A DNA stretch of 64,000 bases from Leucobacter musarum subsp. musarum (GTDB taxonomy: Bacteria; Actinomycetota; Actinomycetes; Actinomycetales; Microbacteriaceae): the NCBI RefSeq assembly GCF_001273845.1, contig NZ_JHBW01000067.1:62001-126000 (forward strand). Reading direction: 5' to 3'. Positions within the stretch are counted from its first letter, which is position 1; the number at the start of each line of letters is the position of its first letter. The notes below the pieces were generated by a model. It had not been told where the DNA came from. It saw only the letters and a program-made list of their open reading frames with translations, and did no database searches. A program made the translations under genes and the position numbers. Of this stretch, positions 705 to 25,547 are shown in pieces.

Positions 705-777
705 GGGTCTGTGGCGCAGTTGGTAGCGCGTCTCGTTCGCAATGAGAAGGTCAGGGGTTCGATTCCCCTCAGATCCA
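705..777 (+). tRNA. tRNA-Ala(CGC)
   Basis: Full cloverleaf can be drawn. Acceptor arm GGGTCTG pairs with CAGATCC (one G-U), D-stem GCGC/GCGC, anticodon stem TCTCG/TGAGA, anticodon loop TTCGCAA (anticodon CGC, alanine), T-arm AGGGG-TTCGATT-CCCCT, discriminator A at 777. Its 3' half is duplicated at 25505-25547, which makes it the integration site of a genomic island. The intact copy is on the left, so the island supplied the present 3' end of the gene. Confidence 0.95.
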
Positions 778-778
778 C
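736..778 (+). repeat. Island left attachment site (attL) inside tRNA-Ala
   Basis: 43 bases from the anticodon loop to the 3' end of the tRNA gene recur in direct orientation at 25505-25547 with two mismatches (745 A/G and 774 T/G). The perfect core is 28 bases (746-773). Position in a tRNA 3' end and direct orientation are the classic signature of site-specific integration. Confidence 0.85.
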
Positions 779-916
779 CGGTTAGGGCTTCGGTTTCTTC
801 GTGAAACGGGGCCCGTTTTCTTTCGCTTCGTGCCCTTCGCAATGGGGGCTTATCGGCCCACATGAATGCCAGAGCTCTCCAGACGCAGGCGCCGCTGGCA
901 CCGTAGAGTGATGGAT

Positions 917-1618
917 GTGCCCATTCCCAATGCATCCAAGCCCAAGATCGCCCGCCGACTCCTGCGCGACGAAGCGCACGATCTGATCCGCGCCGCGATA
1001 CTCGACGGCACCCTCGCGGCCGGCGAGCAACTCGATGACGCGAGCCTGCAGAATTGGCTCGGGATCTCCCGCACCCCGATCCGCGAGGCGATCATCGCTC
1101 TGCAGGTCGAAGGCTTTGTCGAGATCGCCGCGCAGACGCATACTCGCGTGGTCGACCCGACCCCGCAAGACGTTATCTACGCGATCCAGACCGTGGGCAC
1201 CGTATTCGGCGGCGTTCTGCGTTCAATCGTGCCCGATCTCGACGACCTCACTCGAGCACAGATAGTGGAGATCGTGGAACGCGCGAAAGCGGCGATCGCT
1301 GCGGGCGACGCACGCACGCACATGAACACGACGATCGAGTACTACCGGCTCATGATCGAGCGTTGCCAGAACCCCACACTGAAGCTGGTCGCCGACTGGG
1401 CGGTCACGTCGCTCAGCTTCAAATACAGCATCACCGTCGATCAGCGTGAACCCAATTGGGACATGCTCACACACGGTTGGGAGCAAATGCATCAGGCGAT
1501 CATTGACGGTGACGCAATCGCTGCGGAGCTCGCTTGCGAAGACATGCATCTTCTCCCCGGTTCTGGCACCGACTGGGCGCCGCCGTCTTGGAAGTCGGAC
1601 TCGGGAGCATCCGCATGA
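917..1618 (+). CDS. GntR/FCD-family transcriptional regulator, copy 1
   Basis: 233-aa DNA-binding regulator: winged-helix GntR domain at about residues 8-75 (recognition region GISRTPIREAI) and an all-helical FCD effector domain at about 85-215. Start chosen at GTG 917 because it lines up exactly with the ATG of the paralogue at 15057 and sits 7 bases after a TAGAGT -10-like box (904-909), consistent with a leaderless mRNA. ATG 911 is the alternative. The gene is nearly identical to the 15057 copy at a constant offset of 14140 bases, but the similarity stops at codon CEDM (about 1548). The last 23 residues are unrelated and probably read into foreign sequence, so this copy may be truncated. 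Ligand and targets unknown. Confidence 0.8.
   Translation: MPIPNASKPKIARRLLRDEAHDLIRAAILDGTLAAGEQLDDASLQNWLGISRTPIREAIIALQVEGFVEIAAQTHTRVVDPTPQDVIYAIQTVGTVFGGVLRSIVPDLDDLTRAQIVEIVERAKAAIAAGDARTHMNTTIEYYRLMIERCQNPTLKLVADWAVTSLSFKYSITVDQREPNWDMLTHGWEQMHQAIIDGDAIAAELACEDMHLLPGSGTDWAPPSWKSDSGASA
930..1548 (+). repeat. Duplicated GntR segment, copy 1 (partner 15070-15688)
   Basis: Gap-free near-identity with 15070-15688 at a fixed offset of 14140 bases. Both copies lose similarity at the same base after GACATGCA. Recombination between the two direct copies would excise the roughly 14.1 kb between them. Confidence 0.85.
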
Positions 1619-1755
1619 TTCGAACAGCCGGAGCGCTTATCCGACGGCCCGGAATGGGCATGCTTCTTATCGGCGCGACAGCCTTCGCAATCTCGCTCGT
1701 CTGCGCGGGCGTGTATTGCGCGGTCTGCGAGTACCCGTCAGTCGTGCACCTCTAG
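1615..1755 (+). CDS. Possible small membrane peptide
   Basis: 46-codon frame whose ATG overlaps the GntR stop (ATGA at 1615-1618). It holds one hydrophobic stretch (GMLLIGATAFAISLVCAG) and two cysteines near the C-terminus. No family recognised. The overlap suggests translational coupling, but the same frame stays open upstream to 1534, so it could equally be the tail of a larger membrane protein cut when the GntR gene was rearranged. Confidence 0.25.
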   Translation: MIRTAGALIRRPGMGMLLIGATAFAISLVCAGVYCAVCEYPSVVHL

Positions 1756-1912
1756 GTAAATCGTCAGACCAACATCGTCGAAGTCGACTCGAGCGAAGTC
1801 CTAGGCGGAGACATTCGATCCGCCCAACCATAACTCTTGCCCCTGCAGATAAACGTCGTCTTTAAGCTTCCGGGGCGTCAACTGAGCAGCCCTGGACCGA
1901 TCATGGCGATGC

Positions 1913-5697: not shown

Positions 5698-6285
5698 TTA
5701 CCGGGCGTCTCGCTCGAGGTAGCGATAGATCGTGGGTCGGGTCACGTTAAACGTGTCAGCGATCTCCTGCACGGTGTGCTCCTTACTGTCGTACATCGCC
5801 CGCGCCTGCTTGATCTTCGCGTCCGTCATCTTTGGGCGCCGGCCACCGTTGCGGCCGCGAGCTCGCGCAGCGGCTAGCCCTTCCTGGGTGCGTTCGACAA
5901 TGAGGTCGTGCTCGAACTCTGCGATTGCGGCGAGCATGTGGAAGAACAGTCTGCCACCGGGAGTCGTGGTGTCGATTCCTTGGGTGACGGCTTTCAGCCC
6001 AATCCCCCGTTGCTCGAGCTCGTCGACGATCTCTTTCAGATTCTTCACCAAGCGTCCGAGGCGATCGAGCTTTGTCACCACCAGAGAGTCACCGTCGCGG
6101 AGGTAACCGAGCGCTTCGGTGAGTGCCGGCCGCCGCGCTAGCTTTCCAGACGCGTGATCCACAAACACTTTCTCGCATCCGGCAGCCTCAAGGACAGCGG
6201 TTTGCCCGGCCGCGTTCTGATCTCTGGTTGATACTCGCGCACTCGACAGCGGGAGGTGAGTTGCATGGCTGCTGAACCTCCTCAT
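5698..6285 (-). CDS. Serine recombinase (resolvase/invertase family)
   Basis: 195 aa from ATG 6285. The catalytic N-domain carries ARVSTRDQN (nucleophilic serine in VST), then GDSLVVTKLDRLGR and GIDTTTPGGRLFFHMLAAIAEFE, followed by the E-helix region and a C-terminal helix-turn-helix (TVQEIADTFNVTRPTIYRYL). The first strand is unusual: the usual IGYARVS reads PLSSARVS, so the extreme N-terminus may have been rearranged and activity is uncertain. A 5'-truncated relative lies at 16032-16432. Small resolvases of this kind act on plasmids and Tn3-like elements and would not be expected to drive tRNA-targeted integration. Confidence 0.85.
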   Translation of the reverse strand: MRRFSSHATHLPLSSARVSTRDQNAAGQTAVLEAAGCEKVFVDHASGKLARRPALTEALGYLRDGDSLVVTKLDRLGRLVKNLKEIVDELEQRGIGLKAVTQGIDTTTPGGRLFFHMLAAIAEFEHDLIVERTQEGLAAARARGRNGGRRPKMTDAKIKQARAMYDSKEHTVQEIADTFNVTRPTIYRYLERDAR

Positions 6286-6552
6286 TCTTGCAACGGCCGC
6301 GGCTGCGCTGTCTCGCGCTGGCGCGCCGTTTAACGGTCGCTTCTCACCCTCACGGTATGTGAGCATCCTCGCTCGCTATGCCCGTATGCGCGCACACGGG
6401 GGCGCTCGCCTTCGTGCAGGCACTTGAGAGGATCCTCGATTTAGCGGGGTCCGTGGAGTGCGGGAACGTCAGGGCGCCGATACCTCTCTCCGCCGGCCGA
6501 TACCGGCAGATCGTTCACGCTGCGCTCGCGCAGCATGGGAAAGGACATTTCG

Positions 6553-7332: not shown

Positions 7333-9315
7333 GTGCAAGCCTGGAGTATGAGAAACCGAAGAACTATTCAATTCTCCGTCATTTGCAGCGCCGCAGCCCT
7401 CGCCTTTACTAGTTGTGCGCTTCCTGAAGCGGGAAACGAGGCCGCCCGCGTCAGTTGGGACGGAGAGAGAGTACGTGTTGAGCTCGACACTGGAGTCGCA
7501 GAGATTGTGCCCGACTCACTCGAGGTGTTCTTCACGTCACATGATGGGGAACAACAGACCTGGTCTGCCCCTGCTGCTGGATCACTGGGGAAGGCATCTG
7601 GCCCCCAACTCGAACCCGAGGGAGCGACTTGGGACTTTCCTGACGCCGCAATGCACGTGCGGGTCTCAGAGGTTGATGGGCGTGCATCGATTTCCTTGGA
7701 ATCGGATCGGACGCAGCAACTCACTTGGCCTCAATCGGCGGGGGACCCGAAGGTTCAGTCGGTTGAGTTTCCTAACGGTGAAGGGCAGTCGATTCCCGTT
7801 GATGATGCCTTCTGGAATAACGCTGATACCGGGTTGGTGGGCAGCTCCTGGGATTTTGCCGGCGGGCTCACCATGCCGTTCTGGGGAACGACATACGCCG
7901 ACTCCGGAGTGAGTTACTTCGTCGATTCCGATATCGGCACGAGTCTCGACTTCACTACGCAGGACGGACGCATCCATGCGGCCGCGACACATGTATTCGA
8001 CGTGGATCGTGGCACCGGAAAATACTCCATCTCGATGGGCGCGAATGATGGAAATCCCGTTGGGGCAGCTCAGGACTATCGGGAGCATCTGCTTGACGGT
8101 GAGGGAATCGTCACGCTCGACTCGAAGATCGCCGTCAACCCTGAGACGGAGCGATTGTTAGGTGCGATTCACGCCTACACCTGGGGGGACGGACGCGACG
8201 CGGAGCTGGTCGCTCGTCTCGAGGAGCTCGGTATTGAACGGGCTTGGCTCGGCTACGACGCCGACGGTTCACCGATGAGTGCCGAGACCGTCGCTGCTGC
8301 GGAGCGAGCCGGTTACCTGGTCGCGCCATACGACACATGGGACAACGCGCAGGATCCCAAAGACGCGGACACCGAGTCGTCGATCTGGCCCGGAGACATC
8401 TGGCCGAATGGTTGCGTGCGAGACAGTAACGGTGAGCCCGTTACCGGGTTCGGCGGCCGGGGATGCTATGTCAGTACCGCGGCGCTTGAAACTGCGGAGC
8501 AGTCCGACGGTGCGCTCTCGAAGCGGGTGCAGGAGTTCACGAGCAATGGAGCTTCGTCGTACTTCCTCGACGTCGACGCCGTCGGTCAACTCTTCCGCGA
8601 CTACTCACCCGAGCATCCGCAGACCGAAGCTCAGGATCGCGAACGCCGAAAGGCCCGAATGCTCGCACTCGCGCAGGGAACATACTCATCGGGCTCACCG
8701 CTCGTATTGGGCTCAGAGACCGCGGCGTCGTGGGCAAACGGATCGCTGAGTTATTCACACGGATCGAGCACGTCGTTGACTAACGCGATATGGGAATTCC
8801 AAAAAAACCGTGAGCAGTGGGGAGGGTACTGGCCGAAAGAACGGCCAGGATTCTTCTTCAAGCCCACTGAGCTCCCGGAAGCACTCGCGACTGCGATGTT
8901 CGCGCCTGAGTACCGCGTCCCGCTGTACGAGACCGTGCTCCACGACTCGGTGGTCTCGACGGATCGTTGGGAGATGGGTCTCTACAAGTTCGCCGGGCTC
9001 ACGGAACAACGCATTCTGACGAACATGCTCTATAACACCCCAGCCGTGATCGCTCTCGACGGTCGTGTGCTCGAAGAGCATGGTGCGCAGCTCGCCGAGA
9101 TGCAGGAAGTGTTCGCGCAGCTGCAGGATGCAGCGGGCACCCAGCCGCTGACCTCTTTCGAGCGAGTAACCGACCAGGTACAGCGCACGACATTCGGCAA
9201 GGGGGCGTTGGTAGTGACGGCAAACTTTGGCACGCAAGAGGCAGCGGGCGTCGCTGCCGGTTGCCTCGTCGCGACAATTCCGGGCCGTGATGACCTGAAC
9301 TACTGCCCGGCATAG
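7333..9315 (+). CDS. Secreted lipoprotein, glycoside-hydrolase-like
   Basis: About 660 aa. N-terminal lipoprotein signal (ICSAAALAFTSC, lipid-bearing Cys about residue 28), a beta-sandwich-like region to about residue 260, then a region that looks like a TIM barrel: RLLGAIHAYTWGDGRD, GIERAWLGYDADG, AGYLVAPYDTWDN, SSYFLDVDAVG. The pattern of strand-end acids (YDADG, FLDVDA, GSETA) resembles large glycosidases such as the GH101/GH129 group, but I cannot fix the family. Start either GTG 7333 (leaderless, TATACT upstream) or ATG 7348. Acting outside the membrane, it would trim host or environmental glycans. It is flanked by a CorA remnant and a frameshifted gene, yet itself has an intact frame. 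Confidence 0.65.
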   Translation: MQAWSMRNRRTIQFSVICSAAALAFTSCALPEAGNEAARVSWDGERVRVELDTGVAEIVPDSLEVFFTSHDGEQQTWSAPAAGSLGKASGPQLEPEGATWDFPDAAMHVRVSEVDGRASISLESDRTQQLTWPQSAGDPKVQSVEFPNGEGQSIPVDDAFWNNADTGLVGSSWDFAGGLTMPFWGTTYADSGVSYFVDSDIGTSLDFTTQDGRIHAAATHVFDVDRGTGKYSISMGANDGNPVGAAQDYREHLLDGEGIVTLDSKIAVNPETERLLGAIHAYTWGDGRDAELVARLEELGIERAWLGYDADGSPMSAETVAAAERAGYLVAPYDTWDNAQDPKDADTESSIWPGDIWPNGCVRDSNGEPVTGFGGRGCYVSTAALETAEQSDGALSKRVQEFTSNGASSYFLDVDAVGQLFRDYSPEHPQTEAQDRERRKARMLALAQGTYSSGSPLVLGSETAASWANGSLSYSHGSSTSLTNAIWEFQKNREQWGGYWPKERPGFFFKPTELPEALATAMFAPEYRVPLYETVLHDSVVSTDRWEMGLYKFAGLTEQRILTNMLYNTPAVIALDGRVLEEHGAQLAEMQEVFAQLQDAAGTQPLTSFERVTDQVQRTTFGKGALVVTANFGTQEAAGVAAGCLVATIPGRDDLNYCPA

Positions 9316-9347
9316 CGAGCAGCTGCGGGTTGCTGATTGGTCACCGA

Positions 9348-9820
9348 TCAGCACCCCGCAGAGTCATCTGCGAGAGCGCACGCGAGTTCGATGAACGATA
9401 CGGCACGCACGATGTCACCGCTGCCGAGGGCTTCATCGGCGTACCGAATTGCCGCGTCAACGGCGCGCCGCTGATTTCGGCGCAGCCGCCGCAGCGTCAG
9501 ATCGGTATGCCCGGCGGCATGCGTAACTTCGAGCTGCCACAGTTTGGATGGCGTTGCCAGACCTTCCCGAGGTGCACTTGTCCTGAGCTCATGAACGCGC
9601 TGAGGCCACTGCGTTTCCGACGAGCGATTCTCCGGTGTGATCATCGTGCGGTATTCGATTCCGTGCACACGGCCAAGCATGAGCACCCGAAGCACTCCCG
9701 ATTCTGCGCAGGTGAAAGCGCATTTCTACTGAGCCCACTCTGCAAATTTGCTAGAACGAGAGCGCTGACGCACGCAATCGCGACCATACCGAGAACGAGC
9801 TTGATGCCTCTTAACCGCAC
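9348..9820 (-). pseudogene. Frameshifted small secreted/membrane protein
   Basis: From GTG 9820 (ribosome binding site AAAGGA, spacing 6) the first frame encodes a signal or anchor peptide (GIKLVLGMVAIACVSALVL) and stops at about 9642. An overlapping frame from about 9695 carries on to 9348 with a charged helical domain (TDLTLRRLRRNQRRAVD). Joined, they give about 155 residues, a plausible signal-anchored protein. Lack of an independent start signal for the second frame argues for a frameshift. Family unknown. Confidence 0.45.
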
Positions 9821-10257
9821 GAGAATTCCTTTAGCTTAGGGCCGCCGGATCAGCGGCAAGTCCAGTTCAATACAGCCGCGGGTTTCGCTTCTTTATCACC
9901 CCGAAACTGAGTTCGGCGCGACGATCTGCCCTTCTGCGCAGTAGGTAGTAGTGAGGTGTGAACCTAGCAGCGATTGGCACCCCGTCACTTCCTCTGCGAA
10001 ATCGGCGCGAATAAGTGACGTTTCTGTTGCTCTGGCGATCGAACATCTGGCACCGAAGTGCCTAACGGCCAACTTCGGCAGATGTTAGACAGCCGGGCTG
10101 CCCGGTGACGGCCTTATCGTGTCCACAGCCGAATACGCGCAGGTTCAATCACTCGCCCCTGCGAACGGCGACCTTCACACGATAGAGAAACGAAACAGCG
10201 CTTCGGAGTGAGATGGCACATCTCGGCAAACCTCAGCACGAATCTTTAGGAGAGACA
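9821..10257. other. Intergenic region with repeat copy A
   Basis: 437 bases without a supported gene. It holds copy A of a diverged 100-base repeat (9913-10015) and the upstream region of the lipoprotein at 10258. No RNA gene recognised. Confidence 0.5.
9913..10015 (+). repeat. Diverged ~100-base repeat, copy A
   Basis: Aligns with 10918-11024 through blocks such as TCGGCGCGACGATCTG, TTCTGCGCAGTA and GAGGTGTGA, with a few substitutions and small indels. Copy A lies 242 bases before a lipoprotein gene and copy B 134 bases before a wall-protein gene, both in the same direction. Confidence 0.75.
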
Positions 10258-10734
10258 ATGGCCCCATCATCACCGCGTGTACGCGCCGTCGCATGCGCCG
10301 CAATCCCAGTCCTCGTCTTCGGGTTGATTGGCTGCGCTCCCGCGTCAGATTCGACCAATTCACAAAATGGCGCCACATCCACCGACCGGAACGCGAATCC
10401 TCAATCCACCTCGGAATACGACGACTGGTACCTCAAGTTTGCAAAATGCATGAGGGGAAAAGGAGTTGACGTCCCAGATACCCCGCCATCCACAATGTCA
10501 CTCAACCCGGACGACGGGTTCTCCGAGGCCGCGCCAACCTGCATAAAAGAGGTGGGCAACCCTCCAACCCGTAACTTGGGCACTCCACGGTCCGAGGACA
10601 CCAGACGGAAGATTGCTCAGTGTTATCGCGATTCCGGCTACGACGTAGCCGATCCAAAACCAGGCATGCCTGCGGAGATGCCCGTCGATGCCCCGCCGGA
10701 AATCGTCGACAAGTGCCTTGCCGCAGCAAATTGA
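10258..10734 (+). CDS. Small secreted lipoprotein
   Basis: 158 aa from ATG 10258 with a strong ribosome binding site (AGGAGA, spacing 5). Lipoprotein signal VFGLIGCAPAS with the lipobox cysteine near residue 22, a Ser/Thr/Asn-rich linker, then a globular part with the recurring pattern FAKCMRGKGVDVPDTPP and three more cysteines. Actinobacterial lipoproteins with this C-M-R-x-x-G-V-x-x-P pattern are common, but no function is established that I can name. Anchored on the outer face of the membrane. Confidence 0.7.
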   Translation: MAPSSPRVRAVACAAIPVLVFGLIGCAPASDSTNSQNGATSTDRNANPQSTSEYDDWYLKFAKCMRGKGVDVPDTPPSTMSLNPDDGFSEAAPTCIKEVGNPPTRNLGTPRSEDTRRKIAQCYRDSGYDVADPKPGMPAEMPVDAPPEIVDKCLAAAN

Positions 10735-11158
10735 GAGCGCAACGAAACATTTACCGGTTCACACGACAGCGTACGATCACTGGCGTCGGCACGCCCAATC
10801 AAACCATCGATACCAAGGCCTGAACGGGGACTGTCAAAGAAGCACTTGGATACCTTCTCAGTTTTGAACATTCAAAGTAGTGCTCTCTTTGCAGCACGCT
10901 TCGCCACTTCGCAGGCGTCGGCGCGACGATCTGTCCTCTTTTCTGCGCAGTAAGTAGTAGCGAGGTGTGAGCCTGGAAGCGAATGGCGCCCCGTCGGCGC
11001 CTCTGAGAAATCAGCGCACAAACGCACACACCTGAGGTTACTCCGATCGCTAGCGACGATATCTACACGATCCAGCAAGCTGCCTACTTGTCCTCCGCTC
11101 GCGGGCCCTTGGTATCTTTATCCGAAATGAGCACTCACTACTCCCAGGGAGCTGGCGA
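10735..11158. other. Intergenic region with repeat copy B
   Basis: 424 bases without a supported gene. Contains repeat copy B at 10918-11024 and the promoter region of the wall protein at 11159. Confidence 0.5.
10918..11024 (+). repeat. Diverged ~100-base repeat, copy B
   Basis: Partner of 9913-10015 (see that entry). Precedes the wall-anchored protein gene. Could be a shared leader, promoter module or duplication scar. Confidence 0.75.
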
Positions 11159-12532
11159 ATGAACTTAAGATTCCGGAATTCACTGGTGGTCGCGACGGTG
11201 CTCGTGTGCGCGGCGGTAGGCGTGACGATCCCAGCGGATCGAGCAGAAGCCGTCCCGCTCGAAAATGAGCTATTTTCGATCAGTGAGACCAGACCTGAAC
11301 TTTCGGTGCCGCTCGGGTACTCCGGCACGACCGAGACCACCCTCACTGCTCATACCCGGATCCAGGTGACTCAGCCATGGGGTCAGCTCGAGTCAGGCGG
11401 GCCTGATTATCCGTTCTGGTCACGATTCGCTGGAGTATGCGCTACCTGGAGCGGCACGGATGTCGATACTTTCGTGATGCAAGCCGGGGACTCCTGCACA
11501 TGGACTTACACGTACACCCCGCAACGATTCGAAAACTCGGCTGCGCAGTGGACGCCGAGCGCACGCGCCATCGATGAAGCCGGAGTGCCATTTGGCGTCA
11601 CCGTCCCGGGACCGGTGTACCTGTTCGTCGGCATCCGGGCGCTCGAAGCGGCACAACTGAGTTTCGGCGAAGTCGCGGTGGGTGATTCAGGGACGGGAAG
11701 TCTCACCCTCAGCAATCCAACGGCCATCGACATCACGGTTTCCGGCGCGACCTTTACCGCTCCGGAGTTCACGCTCGCAGAAGCGGCGGAGCTCCCAGTC
11801 ACCGTCCCCGCAGGCCAGACGTACGACCTGCCGATCACGTTCGCCCCGCAGCAGGTCGGCCCGATCGAAGACTTCTGGGGTCTCAGAATCGACTACGACG
11901 TGCCAGGTTTCGGCACGAGCTGGTTCGCTCGGACACTGTCAGGAACCGGGGTGCAGCCCCTGATCGAACCGCTTCCGTTGGAAGTCAGCGATCTCGATTT
12001 CGGAAGTGTTCTCGTAGGCGACACCATTCCCGGAAGCGTGACCGTGCGCAACATTTCCGAATTGCCCGCTACTGCGCAGATCACGAATGTAGACAACCTC
12101 AACCGCCGCGGGGTGACTGCTGCACGGGAGTCGATTGAACTTGCCCCCGGAGAATCAGCTACTGTCGCGCTGAGCTGGTCCCCCGCCACCCCGGTTAATA
12201 CGTCGACCTTCACGACGGTGGACTGGATCGATGCCCAGCACCCAGGTACCGGCCTGCGGCAGTCCAGATTGACCGGCTCCGCCTACCTGCCCACGGAACC
12301 GCCGTCGCCGATCACTCCACCTGAAGAAAGAGGCGGTGTGGCCGCGAATCTCGGTCGCGGAGCCAGTCCCGCAGCTCCCCCGCAGGAACTCGCCGCTACG
12401 GGATCGCAGGGCATCACTCAGTTTTGTGCTCTTATCGCAGCTCTCGTCGCCGCTTCGGGGGTGTCGTTTGCCGGCGCCCGTCGCTTTCAGACGCGACGCT
12501 CCCCCGGCACAGTCTCGCGCTCCTGGCGCTAA
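11159..12532 (+). CDS. Wall-anchored surface protein with LAATG sorting signal
   Basis: 457 aa. Signal peptide over residues 1-32 (LVVATVLVCAAVGVTIP), unique N-domain to about 155, then two choice-of-anchor-D / ASH-like immunoglobulin-fold domains opening with LSFGEVAVGDSGTGSLTLSN (about 162) and LDFGSVLVGDTIPGSVTVRN (about 280). A Pro-rich spacer leads to LAATG at 411-415, a hydrophobic segment and an Arg-rich tail, the order of a sortase substrate. LAATG departs from LPXTG at position 2. A related C-terminus survives as a fragment at 16505-16740. No sortase is in the island; a chromosomal sortase must attach it. Role: surface binding or adhesion (inference). Confidence 0.78.
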   Translation: MNLRFRNSLVVATVLVCAAVGVTIPADRAEAVPLENELFSISETRPELSVPLGYSGTTETTLTAHTRIQVTQPWGQLESGGPDYPFWSRFAGVCATWSGTDVDTFVMQAGDSCTWTYTYTPQRFENSAAQWTPSARAIDEAGVPFGVTVPGPVYLFVGIRALEAAQLSFGEVAVGDSGTGSLTLSNPTAIDITVSGATFTAPEFTLAEAAELPVTVPAGQTYDLPITFAPQQVGPIEDFWGLRIDYDVPGFGTSWFARTLSGTGVQPLIEPLPLEVSDLDFGSVLVGDTIPGSVTVRNISELPATAQITNVDNLNRRGVTAARESIELAPGESATVALSWSPATPVNTSTFTTVDWIDAQHPGTGLRQSRLTGSAYLPTEPPSPITPPEERGGVAANLGRGASPAAPPQELAATGSQGITQFCALIAALVAASGVSFAGARRFQTRRSPGTVSRSWR

Positions 12533-14779: not shown

Positions 14780-14825
14780 GATCAGATCCTCTCGCGGGTG
14801 AGCGGGTATCCCAATACTACCAGAT

Positions 14826-14961
14826 TTCCCAAAAACCACCGAACGTGAGTTTCGGGCCAAAATGGTTTCGGGAGGCATTTTGGGAATCCCTATTCCAATC
14901 TCCGAGTGCACTTCCTCGCCCCCGAGCCCGGTCCACCTTCCCAAAAACGATCATTTTTGGG
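14826..14961. promoter_or_regulatory. Candidate operator cluster upstream of antitoxin-fic
   Basis: The element TTCCCAAAA occurs four times in either orientation: 14826-14835, 14877-14886 (inverted) and as a perfect 8-base inverted repeat with a 6-base spacer at 14940-14961 (CCCAAAAA / TTTTTGGG). All lie in the 180 bases before the antitoxin start, where an autoregulator would bind. The IR could instead act as a hairpin. Confidence 0.4.
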
Positions 14962-15056
14962 CTTTCTTTGTGTCCGAGCGATCGCCACTGGCCTATGTAT
15001 CTCCATCGGAGCCGAGCCTGAAGCTTTAACCGATATAGCACATTCGGATTTGAGAT

Positions 15057-15959
15057 ATGCCCAAACCCTTTGCGTCGAAGCCCAAGATCGCCCGCAGACT
15101 CTTCCGCGACGAAGCGCACGATCTGATCCGCGCCGCGATACTCGACGGCACCCTCGCGCCCGGCGAGCAACTCGATGACGCGAGCCTGCAGAATTGGCTC
15201 GGGATCTCCCGCACCCCGATCCGCGAGGCGATCATCGCCTTGCAGGTTGAAGGGTTCGTCGAAATCGCCGCGCAAACGCATACTCGCGTGGTCGACCCAA
15301 CACCGCAAGACGTGATCTACGCGATCCAGACCGTGGGTACCGTATTCGGCGGCGTTCTGCGTTCGATCGTGCCCGAGCTCGACGACCCCACCCGAGCTCA
15401 GATCGTCGAGCTCGTAAAGCGCGCGAAAGCGGCAATCACTGCGGGTGACGCACGTACCCATATGAACGTCACGATCGAGTACTACCGGCTCATGATCGAG
15501 CGGTGCCAGAACCCCACGCTGAAGCTGGTCGCCGACTGGGCCGTCACGTCCCTCAGTTTCAAATACAGCATTACCGTCGATCAGCGTGAACCCAACTGGG
15601 AAATGCTCACTCACGGTTGGGGGCACATGCACCAGGCGATCGTTGACGGTGACGCAATCGCAGCGGAGCTCGCGTGCGAAGACATGCAAAAACGCGACAG
15701 ATGCAACGATCTCCGCACCTGTGGGACAGATGCAACGATCTCCGCACCTGTGGGTCCGTGCAGCAGCCAGCCAAGCGGAATAAACGCTTGGTGCGGCCAG
15801 GATGGCTTCGTCGTACAGAATTGCAATAGCCCCAACGTTCGCATCCAGGTCAGGGGCAGCGCGGTTCCCCAATGGTTCGGACGCGCAACGTTGAGTCCCT
15901 GCCAGCAGAAGACCTGGGGAAATGTCTTGATCCTCACAGGCGAGTGGCGCTACTGCTAG
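15057..15959 (+). CDS. GntR/FCD-family regulator, copy 2
   Basis: 300-codon frame from ATG 15057. Residues 1-211 nearly duplicate the regulator at 917 (HTH GISRTPIREAI, then FCD helices). After CEDM the sequence switches to an unrelated Cys-rich tail of about 90 residues, which contains two tandem 29-base repeats and ends at 15959. FCD domains normally end soon after this point, so the tail is probably read-through into inserted DNA. The DNA-binding domain is intact. Whether the protein folds is uncertain. Confidence 0.7.
   Translation: MPKPFASKPKIARRLFRDEAHDLIRAAILDGTLAPGEQLDDASLQNWLGISRTPIREAIIALQVEGFVEIAAQTHTRVVDPTPQDVIYAIQTVGTVFGGVLRSIVPELDDPTRAQIVELVKRAKAAITAGDARTHMNVTIEYYRLMIERCQNPTLKLVADWAVTSLSFKYSITVDQREPNWEMLTHGWGHMHQAIVDGDAIAAELACEDMQKRDRCNDLRTCGTDATISAPVGPCSSQPSGINAWCGQDGFVVQNCNSPNVRIQVRGSAVPQWFGRATLSPCQQKTWGNVLILTGEWRYC
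15070..15688 (+). repeat. Duplicated GntR segment, copy 2 (partner 930-1548)
   Basis: See 930-1548: constant offset of 14140 bases, no indels, similarity lost at the same base. Confidence 0.85.
15697..15754 (+). repeat. Two perfect tandem 29-base repeats
   Basis: The unit begins ACAGATGCAACGATCTCC and ends CACCTGTGGG; copies are 15697-15725 and 15726-15754. It lies exactly where the GntR copy 2 tail departs from copy 1, so it may be the end of a vanished insertion element or a replication-slippage product. Confidence 0.85.
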
Positions 15960-15997
15960 GCATCACTCTCCTGACGCCGCCGGCGTGATACCAACCG

Positions 15998-16051
15998 TGA
16001 AGGTCTTTAATGAATGGACCGCTTGAAGCTCTCATTCACCGGAGACCTTCA
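15998..16051. terminator. Compound inverted repeat between convergent genes
   Basis: Outer arms TGAAGGTCT (15998-16006) and AGACCTTCA (16043-16051) with a second, inner pair TGAAT/ATTCA. It sits between the end of GntR copy 2 and the end of the resolvase fragment, so it may be a bidirectional terminator. It could also be a mobile-element end. Confidence 0.35.
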
Positions 16052-16432
16052 GACGTTTGTCCCACCTTGCAACACCATGTGCCCCATGCCTCAGTAGCCC
16101 GCTTAGTCCAGGCCAGATGCGCTCAAGGCGCCGATAAAAGGTCGGCCGCGTCACGTTGAAAGTGTCAGCGACCTCCTGCACCGTGTACTCCTGACTGCCG
16201 CACATCGCGCGGGCCAGCTTGATCTTCGCGTCTGTCATATTCGGACGCCGGCCACCATCGCGGCCGCGAGCTCGCGCAGCGGCAAAACCCTCCTGAGTAC
16301 GTTCGACGATGAGGTCATGCTCGAACCCCGCAATCGCCGCGAGCACATGAAAGAACAGGCGACCACGGGGCGTCGTCGTGTCGATGCCCTGCGTGACTGC
16401 CTTAAACCCGATCCCCCGCTGCTCAAGCTCGT
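16032..16432 (-). pseudogene. 5'-truncated serine recombinase
   Basis: Begins abruptly at HELEQRGIGFKAVTQGIDTT (about 16432) and continues through FEHDLIVERTQEG to the C-terminal helix-turn-helix (VADTFNVTRPTFYRRLE). Close relative of the resolvase at 5698-6285, but the catalytic serine region and about 90 residues are missing. The C-terminus also runs on 20 residues past the usual end. Dead remnant of a second resolvase copy. Confidence 0.85.
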
Positions 16433-16504
16433 GTAGTTGCCCCCGGTCTGTTCACGATCGAGACCACAAAATAGAGCTAAGAGCGCGAGATCACCCCTGG
16501 GGTG

Positions 16505-16740
16505 TCAGACCCGAAAGCAATGGGCGCCGGCGAGCGTCGCCCCCGCAGCGGCGGCGACGAGCGATGGCATCAGGGCACTAGATTGCACAATGTCCGACGA
16601 TCCCGTAGCGGGGAGTGCGTCAGTTGCCGTTTTGAGGCTGGGGCCGTGACTGAGACCAGGCGCTGCATTGGCTCCTTCTTTTGGTGGGGTGGTCGGCTCA
16701 GGCGGCTCCGTGGGCAGAGAGGCGGAGCCGGTCAGTAACG
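16505..16740 (-). pseudogene. C-terminal fragment of a wall-anchored protein
   Basis: Encodes TGSASLPTEPPEPTTPPKEG, a linker, LPATG, a hydrophobic helix and a short tail. The order and wording match the C-terminus of the 457-aa wall protein (TGSAYLPTEPPSPITPPEE ... LAATG). No signal peptide or binding domain remains; the frame upstream (to 16825) is unrelated. It is a decayed relative in the opposite orientation, and it keeps the canonical LPXTG that the long copy has lost. Confidence 0.75.
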
Positions 16741-17006
16741 AACCCTCTGGGGCGGCGAGGGGGCATAGGTTCAGCCTTACCAGCCAGCAAAAATCAGCCA
16801 TGTTGAATGTCAACCGCACGGGCATACGGCTCGTACGAGACGCTGGCTCGCGCTCCGAGGGGTGCGATGCGCGTACGCCTGCGCGGGGATTGCTAGGTAA
16901 TCCTGGCTGACCGGCTCGACGTCCGGGCTATCGGGCATTTAGCATGAAACTGACTGAAATATTTTATGTATCGCACTAGTTCTGCATGCTACTCGAGAGA
17001 AATATA
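16741..17006. other. Intergenic region before the adhesin operon
   Basis: 266 bases with falling G+C toward the 3' end. The last 60 bases (AT-rich, with a GAGAGA ribosome binding site) are the likely promoter region for the lipoprotein-adhesin pair. Confidence 0.35.
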
Positions 17007-17384
17007 ATGAAACGACGTCACACAGCTATGACTATTGTGGCGGCAGGTTGGCTCACCTCTTGCAGCGTATCTAGCCCGCCCACGCCTCCCATCTCCGAAC
17101 CCGCGACTGTGCACTGCGCGAACCGCGATGTCTTTCTTGAGGACGCGGGAACGAATGTCAACCTCGTGGGCTCATGCGCGAGTGTGACTGTGGCGGCCTC
17201 CTCAATTGAGGTGACCGGTGACGGGACGGAGTCCCTCATCCTGCGTGGCAGCGAGAACAGGGTCACTCTCGATCAGATCGAGGTTATGGATATCGAGGGC
17301 CGCGGAAACCATGTCGTATGGCAAGAAGGAATTTCAGTCTCGGAAGAGATGTTTCCTGGCAACACGTTGGACGGACCCCAATGA
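17007..17384 (+). CDS. DUF3060-type small lipoprotein
   Basis: 125 aa from ATG 17007 (GAGAGA upstream). Lipoprotein signal MTIVAAGWLTSCSVSS with lipobox Cys, then a short repetitive beta-solenoid typical of DUF3060 (LVGSCASVTVAASSIEVTG, NRVTLDQIEVMDIEG), where N and D residues recur at turns. Its stop overlaps the start of the giant adhesin (ATGA at 17381-17384), so the two are translated together. It may sit at the membrane as a partner of the adhesin (inference). Confidence 0.75.
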   Translation: MKRRHTAMTIVAAGWLTSCSVSSPPTPPISEPATVHCANRDVFLEDAGTNVNLVGSCASVTVAASSIEVTGDGTESLILRGSENRVTLDQIEVMDIEGRGNHVVWQEGISVSEEMFPGNTLDGPQ

Positions 17385-20300
17385 GCAACGTAACTGACAA
17401 CACTCCGAAAAGCTTGCGCACCCGGCGCACACCTCGAGAACAGAAACCGGAACAAATGACAACTTGCCCACCCAAGAAGCGCGCGCGCCGCGCGCTCGCA
17501 GCGATCACCACGTTGGCGGTGTTCGTTGGCGGCCTCTTGGCGACACCGCTCGCGGCCGCTGCGGAGACGCTGGACGCGACCGGCGAGATCAGTGAGTTTA
17601 AGCTTACGATCACCGATGACGGCGCAGCCGGCACCGTCGATCCTTCTAACACCAATGGCCTCATCGCGACAGCAGGTAGCGCGGTGTTCACCTGGTCCAT
17701 TGGCAGTGAGGGCGTGAACGACGCTGTTGTGGAACAAACACTCCCTCAGGGGTGGAAGTGGGACGAGCGGTCGCTCATCAAGCTCGTGAATGATTCGAGC
17801 TACTTCTCATCCAGCTATGCACTAGACGATGACGGCCGCACGGTTCGTGCGACGATGTCGATCCCGACCGGTTCGCTCGTCACCCTCGACGGCCTCACCG
17901 CGACGGCGAGCGGCTACACGGCAACACCCGGTGAGGTCTACGACGCGCGTGTGCTGTACACCGATGGAACCGGGCAGCACTCCGTTGACGGGGGTGCTCT
18001 CACCCTCGTGGGCGAGTACTCTGCTCGGCTGAGCATGAACAACGGAGCCTCGCAGAGCGAGACGACGCATGACTTCGGCTCGGGTGAGGAGCCCGCGATT
18101 CCACTGCTCACCTACGTTTATTTCAATTCCCACCTTGAGCCGGGGCAGCGACGCCCGATGAATATCGACGTGCCTTTCGACGTGCAGATGACATATGACG
18201 GCCCTAAGGCCAGCGACGTTACTCTGGACAGCCCCAATGCTGAGATCGTAGATGTGACAGAGAAAGTCATTACGATTCGGGTGACTTCGCTTCCAGTGAA
18301 GGACACTGCGACGACTCAAACTTGGCTTCGACCCTTACTGTGGTACCCCCGCGATGAGGTCCCGGAGAAAGCGGCAGACGCGGTCCGCGTGAACTATTGG
18401 CTCACCGGCCCAGTGTGGACGACGAACGGTGGCGAGCCGATCACGGGCAACATCGATGGTCGCGGCTACGCCCTGCTGACCCAAAACAAGCAGGAGGACA
18501 ACTGGGAAGTCCGGCCTGCGCAGGGGCGACTCAAAGCTGCCGACTACCGACTTGGCGTCCCCAGCTACCCAGTCCTGAATGATTCGTCATGGCCGGATGT
18601 GACCGGGGCCATGGTCGCACCACAAGCAGAGATGCTTGCTCACGCGAGCTTCAGTCCGCGTGTGATGTACAACACGGCGACTGGAAAGATGCGAAGCGAG
18701 GGCCTCACCGATCTGGTTTCGTACCAGTTCTGGAACCCTGAGGAGGCGCAGTTTGTGCTCGACTCCTCCGCGATTGGCGTGGGCACCCGTTCCGGGCAAT
18801 CGCTTGGCCGTATTCCCTCATCCTCGTACCGTGTTCAGTACACTGCCGGAACCAATCACGACAGTCCAGACGCGAACCTGTGGGAAGATACCGTGACTGC
18901 CGCGGGTGGCCCTGAACTTGTTGCCGGCGTGCGTGTTTTGTACCTCGATGGCCCCTGGAAGCAGGGCACCGAAAGTGCAAACCATAATGATTTCCGCTTC
19001 GATGTCCAAGTGCCGCTGACTGGTGTCGCCGGTGCCGGAGAATGTATCGTGGTGAACCAGTTCTTGACGGCAGCAGAGACCGGAAAGGTGGCAACTTCCG
19101 CAAGCGCGTGCGTAGAACTGTACTCATCCGCGATCGAGCACACCGCGAACCCCTCAACCGTTGCCGGTGGCAGTTCCGTTGACTTCACCGCAGGGTTGTC
19201 GTTCCGTCGTGCTCCCGGAACCCGACTTGACGCTGAACCCATCGTTCTGGACGATATCCAGTTGACCTTGGAGATCGATTCCGCGTCGACGGCGATCGAT
19301 TTCTCGGCAGTGCGCGAATCGTGGGATGTCGTGTCGTTTACAGAACCAGACTATGGTGCGGACGGCATGCCTGGTACGCAGGACGATGCGGCGCCCGCGC
19401 AGTTGGTTCTGGCCCCGAAGAAGGCTGTCGAGCTGCCTGGGGACCGTCCAGCAGCCACGAAACCGGCAAATTACACGACCAAGGTTTCCTTCCAGAAACC
19501 AGTTAAGCCCAACCACTGGTCGAATGCGAGTGATGGCACGGTGCAGAGCGTCGCAAAGTCGGGTTCATTGACGAAAGACGTCTCAGTCAATGTTCTTCAG
19601 GTTGATACGCTGACCGTCGCCGGTGATGCGGGCCGTGCTGAGGTCGATGGAGCCACAGAGCTAATTGACTTCACGACGTATTGGTACAATTTCACTAAGA
19701 GCAACTTTGACGGCCCGGTTACCTTCCTCAATGTGCTTCCACACGTCGGCGATGACTCCGGAACCTCGTTCCACGGCACCGCGGTGCTGGACAGTCTGCG
19801 CCTGTTGGGCAGCGATGATGGCGTGATCCAGGTCACCACTGACGACCCCTCGCTGATCGGTCTTGCACCCGGAGACAAAGTCACGTGGTCGACGTTGCAA
19901 GATTCGATAGATCTATCGGCGGTAACCGCCGTTCGGGTACAGTATCCGAAGCTTGTCTCAGCGGCTGCCGGAGGGCTCCGCATGGAACTGCGGATCGCTG
20001 GTCAAGAGGCCGGCGACGTATACCGGAACTCAGCGGACGCGTACTTTGGTGCAGATTCCGTCCGGTTGAACACGGAGGTTTCTCAAACGTCGGTGGTCGC
20101 GTCAGGCGCCGGTGGCGTGGTGTTCAATGACCGAAACGGCGATGGCGTGCGGCAGCCCAATGAAGCGGGGTTCGGCAACGTCGATGTCGCAGTCCGCACG
20201 GCTGCAGGCGACGAGGTGACATCGGTGCGCACCAGTGAAGACGGTGAATTCTTCGTGGGCGATCTCGTCTCGACCGTTGACTACGAAGTGATCATTGACC

Positions 20301-22729
20301 CAACCACGCTGCCGGGTAACTCGCACCGTCAGACTGTGGGATGGGAAGATCGTCGTGATAACATCGCCGGCCCTATGCAACTACCCTTGGGTGGCGACCG
20401 CGACGATCTGCTCTTTGGATACCAGACCGTGTACTCAAAGATCGAGCTCGACAAGCAGGTCGGCCTGCCAGCCGGAGACCTCGAAGTGGGATCGACCCTC
20501 ACTTACCGCTTCACTGCAACGAACGCCGGAGCGGGCTCGCTGAACGATGTGACGTTGTCTGACGAGCTCGAAGGGTTGGGCGAACTGACCCTCACGTGGC
20601 CAGGCGACAATGGAATCCTCCCAGCGGGTGAGAGCCTGACAGGCGAGGCCACCTACGCGCTGACCCAGCGGGACATCGACAGCGGTCACATCACGAACGC
20701 TGCTTCCGTGACAGCCGTGGATGAGGTTCTCGGAAATGTCGCTGCCCAAGACACCGTCACGGTCGACATCAAGTCGGCTGCTGCGGTGAAGGTGGACATT
20801 CAGGGAAGCGTGCGCGGTGAGATTGCCGTCGGTGCGCATGTGGACTGGACGATCGTGGTCGAGAACGCCGGACGTCCTACCCTCCGCGATGTGTCGCTCA
20901 CCGAGGATGACGACGAATTGGGTTCGTGGGATGCGCTCGCGCCGGGTGCCCAGAGCATTGTTCGCTCTGAGACCACGCTGACGCAGGCAGACATCGACGC
21001 AGGAGCGGTGAAGCGCACCGTCTCGGTCTCCGGCCTCCACCACGCTGATGGTGGCGTGGTATCCGACACGGCTTCCGCGGAGGTGCTCCTTCCGGTTGCC
21101 GGCGAGCTTGGTCTGCAGATCCTGCTTGAAGGCCAGAAAATTGAGGCTCCGCCGGGTCCGGACGTGATGACGGGCGATGAGGTCGCATGGACGTACCGTG
21201 TCACCAATACCGGTATCCGTACGCTGACAGATATTGAGGTCGGTGACAACCTTCCCGGTAACAACCCGGTGGAGACCATCGACCGTCTTACCCCCGGCGA
21301 GAGCGTCGACATCCTCGTGAACAGCGTGGCCGAGTTCAACGAGCAAACGGTCGAAGCGAACGTGGTCGGCACCGAGGCGGGGCCGCGCCCACACGGTCCG
21401 GTCTCTGCGACGGATCAAAGTTGGTACCGCGGTGTAGTTACCTCCGCCATCACTTTGAGCGAAACGCCCGTCTTGCCCGAGGAAGTTCTTGACGTCGGGA
21501 CCGTGATCCCCTTTGAGATCACGGCAACGAATACGAGCCATGGCACCACTCTCACGGACGTGCAGATCGCCGATCTACTCGAGGGGATGAGTGACCCTGA
21601 GATCGTATGGCCAGGTGCCTCGGAAGAGCTAAAAGTCGGTGAAACAGTATCTGCAACCGTGGAATACGCCATTACGCAGGCCGACGTGGATCGGGGATTC
21701 ATTGAAACTAATGCATTTGCCTCCGGGATTGACATCACAGGCTCTGTGGTAGAAGCACGCGATTCTGTGGAGATATTTATCGGATCCCAAGCGTCTGTGC
21801 ACGTACGTGCGCAGGGTGCCGTCCGAGGAAATATTGAGGCCGGTGCGGTCGTTGACTGGACCGTCACGGTCGAGAACGACAGCATCGTGACTCTTCAGGA
21901 CGTCGTCCTTTCAGACGCCGAGGACAGCATTGGACAATGGGCAACGTTGGCACCCGGTGCGATGCGAGCGGTACGGACTGAGACCATACTCTCCCAAGCA
22001 GATATTGATTCAGGCAGCGTCCAACTCAATGTTCAGGCAGAAGGGAAGCACCCAGTGGATCGCGCCATCGTGTCCGCAACTGACACCGCAGAGGTCTTGC
22101 TTCCGTCACTCAGCGATATTAGTATTTCGATCTTCCTGGACGAGGAAGTGGTGGTGAGCTCCCCAGGTCCTGAATATCCCGAGGGAGCGGAAGTGACGTG
22201 GAGTTACTTGGTCACCAATACAGGATCGCGCACGCTCCACAACGTGGTGATCTCTGATGATCAAGCCGGTCACCAACAGTTCGCTCTTGAGGCACCGCTC
22301 TCTCCGGGCGAGTCCACCACGATCAACCACCAGGACGTCGTAAAGGTCGGACAGCTCGAAGTCAACGCCTCCGTGCAAGCCGACGACGCGGCCCAAAATA
22401 ATCAGGACGGCGCAACTGCCCAAACGCTGGTAACTGATCATGCGCTGTCGTGGCTGTCCGGTGTTCCCGCGCTCGACACCAACATCGACCCAGCTCCCGG
22501 TGCCTCAAAGGGAGATGACGAGAAGACTTCAGAAACCCCAACCGGAGGGGGTGATAAAGCGAGACAACTGGCGACCACCGGCTCCAACGGAGTGCTCGTT
22601 ATGGGCGGAGGATTCCTTGCGTTGATGTTGATCGCCGCCGGAGTGATGTTCATCGCTCGGCGTCGGAAGGAAGATACAACCGATTCCGTGCAGGGCGAAG
22701 TCGGTTCTCTGTCCGAGGACAATTCCTAA
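17381..22729 (+). CDS. Giant wall-anchored adhesin with LATTG sorting signal
   Basis: 1782 aa. A long basic N-terminus is followed by a signal peptide (ALAAITTLAVFVGGLLATP, cleavage near residue 61). Residues 70-900 are a large beta-rich region, then an SdrD-like B domain with a Ca-binding-type pattern (VVFNDRNGDGVRQPNEAG) at about 908-1005. Residues 1018-1690 hold two tandem copies of a three-domain module of about 337 residues built of DUF11/DUF7507-like domains (STLTYRFTATNAG, VDWTIVVENAG, VAWTYRVTNTG). A charged linker leads to LATTG at 1730-1734, a membrane helix and RRRKE. Sortase attaches it to peptidoglycan. Likely role: long-stalk adhesion. Followed by a strong terminator. Confidence 0.85.
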   Translation: MSNVTDNTPKSLRTRRTPREQKPEQMTTCPPKKRARRALAAITTLAVFVGGLLATPLAAAAETLDATGEISEFKLTITDDGAAGTVDPSNTNGLIATAGSAVFTWSIGSEGVNDAVVEQTLPQGWKWDERSLIKLVNDSSYFSSSYALDDDGRTVRATMSIPTGSLVTLDGLTATASGYTATPGEVYDARVLYTDGTGQHSVDGGALTLVGEYSARLSMNNGASQSETTHDFGSGEEPAIPLLTYVYFNSHLEPGQRRPMNIDVPFDVQMTYDGPKASDVTLDSPNAEIVDVTEKVITIRVTSLPVKDTATTQTWLRPLLWYPRDEVPEKAADAVRVNYWLTGPVWTTNGGEPITGNIDGRGYALLTQNKQEDNWEVRPAQGRLKAADYRLGVPSYPVLNDSSWPDVTGAMVAPQAEMLAHASFSPRVMYNTATGKMRSEGLTDLVSYQFWNPEEAQFVLDSSAIGVGTRSGQSLGRIPSSSYRVQYTAGTNHDSPDANLWEDTVTAAGGPELVAGVRVLYLDGPWKQGTESANHNDFRFDVQVPLTGVAGAGECIVVNQFLTAAETGKVATSASACVELYSSAIEHTANPSTVAGGSSVDFTAGLSFRRAPGTRLDAEPIVLDDIQLTLEIDSASTAIDFSAVRESWDVVSFTEPDYGADGMPGTQDDAAPAQLVLAPKKAVELPGDRPAATKPANYTTKVSFQKPVKPNHWSNASDGTVQSVAKSGSLTKDVSVNVLQVDTLTVAGDAGRAEVDGATELIDFTTYWYNFTKSNFDGPVTFLNVLPHVGDDSGTSFHGTAVLDSLRLLGSDDGVIQVTTDDPSLIGLAPGDKVTWSTLQDSIDLSAVTAVRVQYPKLVSAAAGGLRMELRIAGQEAGDVYRNSADAYFGADSVRLNTEVSQTSVVASGAGGVVFNDRNGDGVRQPNEAGFGNVDVAVRTAAGDEVTSVRTSEDGEFFVGDLVSTVDYEVIIDPTTLPGNSHRQTVGWEDRRDNIAGPMQLPLGGDRDDLLFGYQTVYSKIELDKQVGLPAGDLEVGSTLTYRFTATNAGAGSLNDVTLSDELEGLGELTLTWPGDNGILPAGESLTGEATYALTQRDIDSGHITNAASVTAVDEVLGNVAAQDTVTVDIKSAAAVKVDIQGSVRGEIAVGAHVDWTIVVENAGRPTLRDVSLTEDDDELGSWDALAPGAQSIVRSETTLTQADIDAGAVKRTVSVSGLHHADGGVVSDTASAEVLLPVAGELGLQILLEGQKIEAPPGPDVMTGDEVAWTYRVTNTGIRTLTDIEVGDNLPGNNPVETIDRLTPGESVDILVNSVAEFNEQTVEANVVGTEAGPRPHGPVSATDQSWYRGVVTSAITLSETPVLPEEVLDVGTVIPFEITATNTSHGTTLTDVQIADLLEGMSDPEIVWPGASEELKVGETVSATVEYAITQADVDRGFIETNAFASGIDITGSVVEARDSVEIFIGSQASVHVRAQGAVRGNIEAGAVVDWTVTVENDSIVTLQDVVLSDAEDSIGQWATLAPGAMRAVRTETILSQADIDSGSVQLNVQAEGKHPVDRAIVSATDTAEVLLPSLSDISISIFLDEEVVVSSPGPEYPEGAEVTWSYLVTNTGSRTLHNVVISDDQAGHQQFALEAPLSPGESTTINHQDVVKVGQLEVNASVQADDAAQNNQDGATAQTLVTDHALSWLSGVPALDTNIDPAPGASKGDDEKTSETPTGGGDKARQLATTGSNGVLVMGGGFLALMLIAAGVMFIARRRKEDTTDSVQGEVGSLSEDNS

Positions 22730-22738
22730 CGTCTGGCA

Positions 22739-23891: not shown

Positions 23892-24091
23892 ATGCCGCTG
23901 GCCACGTGCGAATGTGCCGGAGCGAGCATCGGTAAGCATTTCACATTTAGATATGGAGTACCAACGCCTATAGATAACGGGTCAGAACGTCACCTTGCCC
24001 GCCGTACGCTGCGAGAGGACGCCTACATCGCGCTCAAGAATGGAATCGTCCATGGTATGTTCGCGGCAGGTGAGCAGCTGGATGAAGCGCA
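23892..24091 (+). pseudogene. GntR 5' stub cut by IS3 element
   Basis: Encodes an N-terminal extension and the first half of a GntR winged helix (ARRTLREDAYIALKNGIVHG, MFAAGEQLDEA), similar to the 917 and 15057 regulators (LDGTLAAGEQLDDAS). Interrupted at 24083 by the left inverted repeat of the IS. The rest of the gene is not found on the other side. Confidence 0.75.
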
Positions 24092-24119
24092 CTGGGTTTA
24101 GTTCCGCACCGGTTTCCGG

Positions 24120-25027
24120 TTAGCGCACCGCTATCGCGGGATTACGGGTTTCAGCGTAGTAGTTCTCCTCGGCCTCGACCGGGGTCCGGTAATCGAGCGC
24201 TTCGTGCAGCCGCCGGTGGTTCCACCACCACACGTACTCAAGCGTCGCGAGTTCGACTTCCTCGACAGTCCGCCAAGGGCCGCGCCGGCGGATCAGCTCT
24301 GCTTTGTAGAACCCGTTCACCGTTTCCGCGAGCGCATTATCGTAACTATCCCCGACCGTCCCAGTCGAGGGCATCGCGCCGGGTTCCCGCACCCGATCGC
24401 TGTACACGATCGACATGTAATTCGACCCGTGATCCGAGTGATGCGTGACTCCGGCAAGATCCCCGCCCGCCGCCCACGCCGCCATCTCAAGCGCCTGTAA
24501 AGGCAGCACATCAGCTCGCAGCGTCGACGCGACGTTCCAACCCACAATCCTGCGGGAGAAGACATCAACGATGAACGCGACGTACGCGAACCCAGACCAT
24601 GTCGCCACATAAGTGATATCGGCCACCCACAAACATCTGGGTGCACCGGCCGTGAAGGCGCGATTAACGAGATCCCCCGGCAGATCCTGCGCAGCATCAC
24701 GTTTCGTCGTGTACGTCTTCGCGCGTCGGGTGACCCCTTGTACACCGGCGACCCGCATTAACCTTCCAGTCTGGTCCCGAGCGATCACCCACCCCGCACG
24801 CTGCAGCAGAGCGTGCATCTTCCGCACTCCATACACGCTGTAGTTCTCAGCATGCAGACGCCGAATCTCGGGCACCAGCCACTCGTCCCGCACCTGTCGG
24901 TCACTGGCCGCCGCTTCGCTGTTCGATAACCACGCGAGGTGAGGAATCCACGAACCGCCGCACGCAGGACACGGCAGATGAACTCGACCCCGAAACGATC
25001 ACGATGCTCGTCGATGAACGCGATCAT
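24120..25027 (-). pseudogene. IS3 transposase OrfB, frameshifted
   Basis: From ATG 25027, overlapping the orfA stop by ATGA, the first frame reads IAFIDEHRDRFGVEFICRVL and on to YRTAKRRP. Near 24905-24915 the coding potential passes to another frame (DRQVRDEWLVPEIRRLHAEN) that runs to 24120. The second part holds the rve DDE catalytic core: WVADITYV (Asp), HHSDHGSNY (Asp) and NALAETVNGFYKAEL (Glu). All three acids are present, but they are out of frame with the N-terminal HTH_21-type region, so one indel has inactivated it. Confidence 0.85.
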
Positions 25028-25338
25028 TTCGTTCGTGGGTGGTCGAGTTCCTTCGCGAAAAATATCGACGCGGCTTTCAAGACCTCGTTCGCTTTGCGCA
25101 GCTCGGCGTTCTCTCGACGCAGGCGACGGTTTTCCTCAGCGATATCGGAGCTCACGCCGGGCTTCGCGCCAGTATCGATCTGGGCTTGCCGGTACCAGGT
25201 GCGCAGGGCTTCGTCACCGATACCGAGAAGCGCGGCGACATGTCGGACCGCGCCGGTCGGGTTCGGGTGATCTGGAAGCGCTTCGGTCACCATGCGAACC
25301 GCACGGGCCTTCAAATCTGGGTCATACTTCTTGGGCAT
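25024..25338 (-). CDS. IS3 transposase OrfA
   Basis: 104 aa. N-terminal helix-turn-helix (ARAVRMVTEALPDHPNPTGA, then VAALLGIGDEALRTWYRQ) and a C-terminal leucine-zipper-like coiled coil (EENRRLRRENAELRKANEVL). Binds the IS ends and joins OrfB in the transposase. Stop overlaps the orfB ATG by four bases. No A-rich slippery heptamer is visible at the junction, so OrfB is more likely made by reinitiation than by programmed slippage. Confidence 0.88.
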   Translation of the reverse strand: MPKKYDPDLKARAVRMVTEALPDHPNPTGAVRHVAALLGIGDEALRTWYRQAQIDTGAKPGVSSDIAEENRRLRRENAELRKANEVLKAASIFFAKELDHPRTK

Positions 25339-25504
25339 CGTGTTCCTATCCTCGTATAAAGGTCGGAACTAAACCCAGTGCGCTTCAGACGGTGGATCTT
25401 CGCCCATGCCCGGATCGTGCCCGCGACAGGCACAATCACCACGCAGTGACACCTCATTCACCGCTCGAACCGGAAAATCATAAAGGCCCCCGGGCGCGAA
25501 CCGC

Positions 25505-25547
25505 TTCGCAATGGGAAGGTCAGGGGTTCGATTCCCCTCAGAGCCAC
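25505..25547 (+). repeat. Island right attachment site (attR), tRNA 3' half remnant
   Basis: Direct copy of 736-778 (41/43). It starts in the anticodon loop, so no tRNA can be made from it: the 5' half is absent. About 40 further bases downstream also resemble those after the left tRNA (AGTTTCCTCGCGAAGCGGG versus GGTTTCTTCGTGAAACGGG), so the original terminator of the chromosomal tRNA probably lies here. Confidence 0.85.

Follow-up and report, generated by a model that had tools for sequence, protein, structure and literature searches.

Genomic islands of the kind collected in the Islander database are bounded by a regenerated tRNA gene and by the displaced fragment of that gene, and islands with a crossover in the anticodon loop form an established class among them (PMC4383910). 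Displaced tRNA fragments of such islands are said to be widespread (PMC9897764). Our search of the literature pairing Leucobacter with genomic islands yielded nothing on the site described below.

We analysed a 64,000-nucleotide stretch of the genome of Leucobacter musarum subsp. musarum (the window, in whose coordinates all positions are given), in which an intact tRNA-Ala(CGC) gene and a partial copy of it enclose 24.8 kb of DNA. Set against the Islander description (PMC4383910), the region has an intact tRNA gene, a displaced 3′ fragment in direct orientation that starts from the anticodon loop, and a length inside the 2–200 kb limits; it differs from that type in having no integrase gene, a composite interior and more non-core DNA outside the fragment. 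Since no tyrosine integrase lies inside, it would fail the database's test as described there. No Islander-type empty site matching both ends was seen in relatives, and core DNA resumes only near 36,070.

The closest system that we found within the genus is an element in another genome, G026. It uses the same tRNA, its attachment sequence likewise begins at the anticodon loop and extends to the 3′ end of the gene, and the terminator is repeated there as well. Unlike the window island, it carries a tyrosine integrase beside the tRNA, and the two show no DNA likeness beyond the tRNA in the first 6 kb, which were compared. We read the window region as a decayed, composite tRNA island without an integrase, one that was inserted at tRNA-Ala(CGC) by a tyrosine-type integrase, decayed afterwards and now lies in a larger non-core stretch; we give this reading a probability of roughly 0.8. 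The island is an ordinary relic of an established kind.

The tRNA-Ala(CGC) gene and its partial copy

The following features define the two ends:
2–667, minus strand, LysE-type gene, the conserved left neighbour of the tRNA
705–779, plus strand, intact tRNA-Ala(CGC) called by ARAGORN, attL side
736–820, plus strand, left repeat, covering the tRNA from its anticodon loop onwards and the terminator
25505–25588, plus strand, right repeat (attR side), consisting of the displaced 3′ half of the tRNA and its terminator

Positions 736–778 and 25505–25547 form a direct repeat with 41 of 43 bases identical (41/44 if taken over 736–779); 200 mononucleotide shuffles of the window gave ungapped scores of at most 28/44. 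The 43-base repeats, one inside the intact gene and the other a remnant lacking the 5′ part, had been described from the sequence alone, and their coordinates proved correct. In a whole-genome search the likeness reached into the terminator, with 84% identity over 85 bp (736–820 versus 25505–25588, E-value 1.9e-18). The right copy starts exactly where the seven-base anticodon loop starts, as read from the sequence with the anticodon at position 34. The tRNA region has seven matches in its own genome, namely itself, the right copy and five in tRNA genes, so that the right copy is the sole match outside a tRNA gene; ARAGORN called no tRNA there. A match on contig C90, near a GntR paralogue, was at one point taken for a second tRNA-Ala fragment and turned out to be a tRNA-Arg gene. 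One detail counts against simple integration, which predicts that the right copy is the native one: by eye, the terminator of a near relative (G060) resembles the left terminator more than the right one. The difference is small, a few bases.

In G026 the tyrosine integrase gene ends ∼135 bp from the 3′ end of the tRNA-Ala(CGC) gene. The same genome contains two detached tRNA fragments. One (locus L170) is an exact 44-bp fragment, starting at the equivalent of position 736, that adjoins an integrase 97% identical to the first with a different N terminus; the other (L171) is an exact 46-bp fragment, starting at 734, and downstream of it stands the gene that comes after the intact tRNA in genome G030 (82% identical DNA over 1.4 kb). 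A further fragment in G022, 94% identical over 35 bp, starts at 735, one base before the start of the window's copy. Given the G026 integrase and two fragments starting at or within two bases of the same point, anticodon-loop integration at tRNA-Ala(CGC) probably happens in Leucobacter. The intact tRNA with its integrase (L089) and the two fragments lie far apart on G026 contig C1, near 2.41, 2.88 and 0.79 Mb, respectively. Two of these loci have 1259 bp in common at 99.8% identity in opposite orientation, a likeness suggesting a large rearrangement.

On this anatomy, a tyrosine-type integrase would have recombined an integrative element into tRNA-Ala(CGC) at the region of the anticodon loop. 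The tRNA 3′ half and terminator brought by the element would have rebuilt the gene on the left, and the original 3′ half and terminator would have been displaced to 25505–25588. The element would then have decayed: it retains no tyrosine recombinase, and its genes are duplicated, cut and interspersed with plasmid-type and IS debris. It would now be immobile unless an integrase acts in trans.

The missing integrase and the right end

With PF00589 searched through the whole genome in six frames, stops being read through, we observed no tyrosine recombinase between the two tRNA copies; the genome has seven matches, all of them outside the island. This agrees with the earlier statement that the interior has only small serine recombinases and no tyrosine integrase; an IS3-family element is there as well. 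The relevant features are:
5698–6366, minus strand, small serine recombinase 1
16032–16346, minus strand, serine recombinase fragment
23980–24082, plus strand, GntR-like 5′ fragment that stops at the IS
24083–25387, minus strand, IS3-family element whose transposase frames are displaced; no other copy was found in its own genome

Small serine recombinase 2 spans 13251–13832, within a module listed below. Outside the window, on contig C96 (3198–3665, locus L012), a tyrosine integrase gene broken by an internal stop adjoins genes for tRNA-Phe, Asp and Glu; it is another decayed integrase at a tRNA in this genome.

The IS3-family element ends 117 bp before the right tRNA copy and had been called defective. 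The word is fair, given that the second transposase frame is displaced relative to that of an IS relative (L131), whose frames overlap; among the IS relatives, overlapping, intact frames were seen only there. The GntR-like fragment is cut at the IS and has no continuation in the 117 bp between the IS and the right copy, which makes a deletion there plausible; DNA adjoining the IS has been lost. The element also lacks matching 3-bp flanks. We had counted missing target duplications as a strong sign of deletion and dropped that argument, given that the one full-length IS relative whose flanks were read lacks matching flanks too.

These observations bear on the form in which the insertion was first proposed, with the integrase next to attR and removed by a deletion adjoining the IS3. 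The cut GntR-like fragment and the unmatched IS flanks speak for it, the latter as a weak sign only; but integrases of the G026 family point to the opposite end. Six loci of the 13 matches to this family were scanned for tRNAs, and in four of them, G026 included, the integrase lies 134–168 bp from the 3′ end of a tRNA (Ala-CGC, Arg-CCG, Val-CAC and Val-GAC), which corresponds to the left end here; no tRNA was called in the other two, one of them being the L170 fragment. The family thus hints that a lost integrase lay on the left, tRNA side, where the GntR gene now sits, although polarity may vary between families. We found no relative showing the island with an integrase. Of the sequence-only reading, integrase-driven insertion at tRNA-Ala(CGC), in which the right copy represents the displaced tRNA 3′ end, holds up, on the strength of the anticodon-loop start and of the G026 fragments with the same start beside an integrase or beside the gene usually found downstream of the tRNA; loss of a right-end integrase together with the IS3 is possible but doubtful.

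Interior and flanks of the island

The remaining features of the island and of its right flank are:
866–1618, plus strand, GntR/FCD regulator, the first gene after the tRNA
7333–9315, plus strand, GH129-family glycosyl hydrolase
11159–12532, plus strand, surface protein with choice-of-anchor D/ASH domains
13251–14944, minus strand, plasmid-type module of a VbhA-like gene, Fic and small serine recombinase 2
15057–15688, plus strand, second GntR/FCD copy, its DNA 91% identical to the first
17318–22729, plus strand, 1803-aa repeat surface protein with DUF7507/DUF11 repeats
25589–36069, second non-core segment, with an epimerase, a siderophore-interacting protein, an iron-siderophore ABC transporter and an AraC-type regulator
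36078–37301, minus strand, first conserved gene on the right, with weak SepX/GlpR likeness below the model's cut-off

The island also encodes a dehydrogenase, a partial hydrolase, a GNAT protein, a weakly GntR-like protein, and recombinase and surface-protein debris. The earlier description of the interior as accessory and mosaic is borne out by its matches in 53 other Leucobacter genomes, which are only gene- or IS-sized, the longest being copies of the IS. For this search the island was divided into two parts, which had some match in 35 and 47 of 54 genus genomes (its own included), and no long block of the island occurred in any of the 53 others; the best five candidates per genome were scored, so scattered short matches may escape, and a long block should not. 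The module at 13251–14944 has a counterpart on plasmid unnamed2 of Leifsonia shinshuensis INR9, where a small gene, Fic and an overlapping serine recombinase occur in the same order and the recombinase is 79.6% identical. The plasmid is 52.7 kb long and has a gene annotated as a relaxase close to this module, whereas Pfam scans of 23 of 75 island ORFs (at least 100 aa, 700–26700) found neither relaxase nor transfer genes. For 10 island ORFs the PHROGs matches were to recombinases, transposases and, weakly, DNA-binding proteins; a match to ‘terminase small subunit’ (4e-4) falls on serine recombinase 1. At the DNA level the whole island gave a single match to plasmids, of 203 bp and in a recombinase, and none to phages.

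Several smaller observations were made along the island. Paralogues of the GntR/FCD gene are located on contigs C90 and C93 of the same chromosome (83% and 71%). A direct repeat of ∼100 bp with 83% identity (9913–10008 and 10918–11017) lies on both sides of a small ORF. The 86-bp stretch 16740–16825 matches 13 other Leucobacter genomes at 77–84% identity, in one of them (G034) repeatedly right where contigs begin; it looks like the end of a widespread IS, judging by these matches. The GH129 hydrolase and the two surface proteins, whose C-terminal ends are LAxTG-like (a motif identified by eye), lie within 7333–22729.

The G+C content is 0.594 inside the island (780–25504), 0.651 to its left (1–704), 0.679 over 25548–36069 and 0.672 over 36070–64000, with shifts at both tRNA copies. 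Both outer flanks had been taken as core-like. For the left flank this stands: of 29 relatives, 11 have a counterpart of the LysE-type gene no more than 1.5 kb from tRNA-Ala, and it stands 5′ of the tRNA in six of the 27 that were placed. The right flank is different. With positions 25500–40000 as query, the conserved block starts between 36,069 and 36,338 in all eight relatives among the matches listed; of the loci from 19 relatives, 18 have a match to the block, located either 5′ or 3′ of the tRNA. Since conserved synteny restarts near 36,070, the non-core DNA 3′ of the tRNA amounts to 35.3 kb, and foreign DNA at the site extends ∼10.5 kb beyond the boundary first drawn at the right repeat. 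Because the island lies within this 35.3-kb stretch, which ends at the conserved gene at 36,078, the tRNA site has probably acquired DNA on more than one occasion.

An empty site in which the tRNA is followed directly by the epimerase had been predicted and was found in none of 19 relatives; the epimerase was absent from the tRNA site in all 29 relatives read over ∼3 kb and in all 19 read over 15–20 kb. No relative of it exceeded 42% identity in 36 genomes of the genus, and a scan of genome contigs with it also gave none. The iron-siderophore genes have matches elsewhere in two genomes (G001 and G013, 69–77%). On these comparisons the 25.6–36.07 kb segment is to be taken as non-core here despite its host-like G+C. 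It may be older than the island, given that in the closest relatives, too, the conserved block is separated from the tRNA by other DNA, 2–3.5 kb of it.

The right copy could instead be the remnant of a tandem duplication of tRNA and terminator, with the DNA in between derived from unrelated insertions. Such an origin would suit a likeness that continues past the tRNA into the terminator, the patchwork interior and the non-core nature of the DNA beyond the right copy. It fits poorly with a copy that begins exactly at the anticodon loop, as do the G026 fragments near integrase-bearing DNA, where the terminator is repeated too, and with G+C changes at both copies; we consider it unlikely. The island might also never have had an integrase and instead be a cis-mobilizable element, flanked by an attachment site at each end and moved in trans. 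The two sites are indeed almost intact (41/43), and a tyrosine recombinase has left no trace, but the cargo looks decayed and the genome encodes no relative of the G026 tRNA-Ala integrase at 1e-20, so this origin seems quite improbable.

The tRNA-Ala(CGC) site in other Leucobacter

One point against insertion by an integrase followed by decay is that none of the relatives compared showed the same two ends, whether as an island with an integrase or as an empty site, and none of the 19 relatives' loci has a second copy of the tRNA 3′ end. The conserved neighbour lies within 300 bp 3′ of the tRNA in five of these 19 (G013, G033, G008, G012 and G005), 1.8–9.9 kb away in seven, and beyond the 13–19 kb examined in the remaining seven. 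We had taken a distant neighbour as a mark of mobile DNA and withdrew this when the DNA after the tRNA in G030 was seen to encode an ordinary-looking protein with CvpA/trypsin domains. The tally of distant neighbours is therefore not a count of islands; only the neighbour differs.

Among Leucobacter, tRNA-Ala(CGC) has the same two conserved genes as neighbours, and it faces one way between them in some genomes and the other way in others. The SepX-like gene stands 5′ of the tRNA in 13 of the 19 relatives, and the other six are arranged as in the window, with the LysE-type gene 5′ and/or the SepX-like gene 3′ of the tRNA. Most of the named relatives of a conserved neighbour protein come from Leucobacter, its nearest tree rows being Leucobacter sp. 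L43 (90% identity) and G016. With 18 Leucobacter rows and one outgroup in the tree, three changes are needed to account for the flipped state (seven rows), and a single change to it was obtained in 0% of 200 bootstrap trees; the well-supported branches alone are compatible with one. That integration and excision can flip the tRNA gene itself, so that the window would represent the flipped state and its foreign DNA a by-product of a target-reorienting integrase, is on this evidence highly improbable.

Significance of the island

The host-like G+C of DNA past a tRNA fragment is no proof of a core flank, 10.5 kb of such DNA being non-core here. The cargo of a GH129 hydrolase and surface proteins could mean contact with a host surface. 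With the window island and the G026 element, tRNA-Ala(CGC) is documented as an anticodon-loop integration site in the genus.
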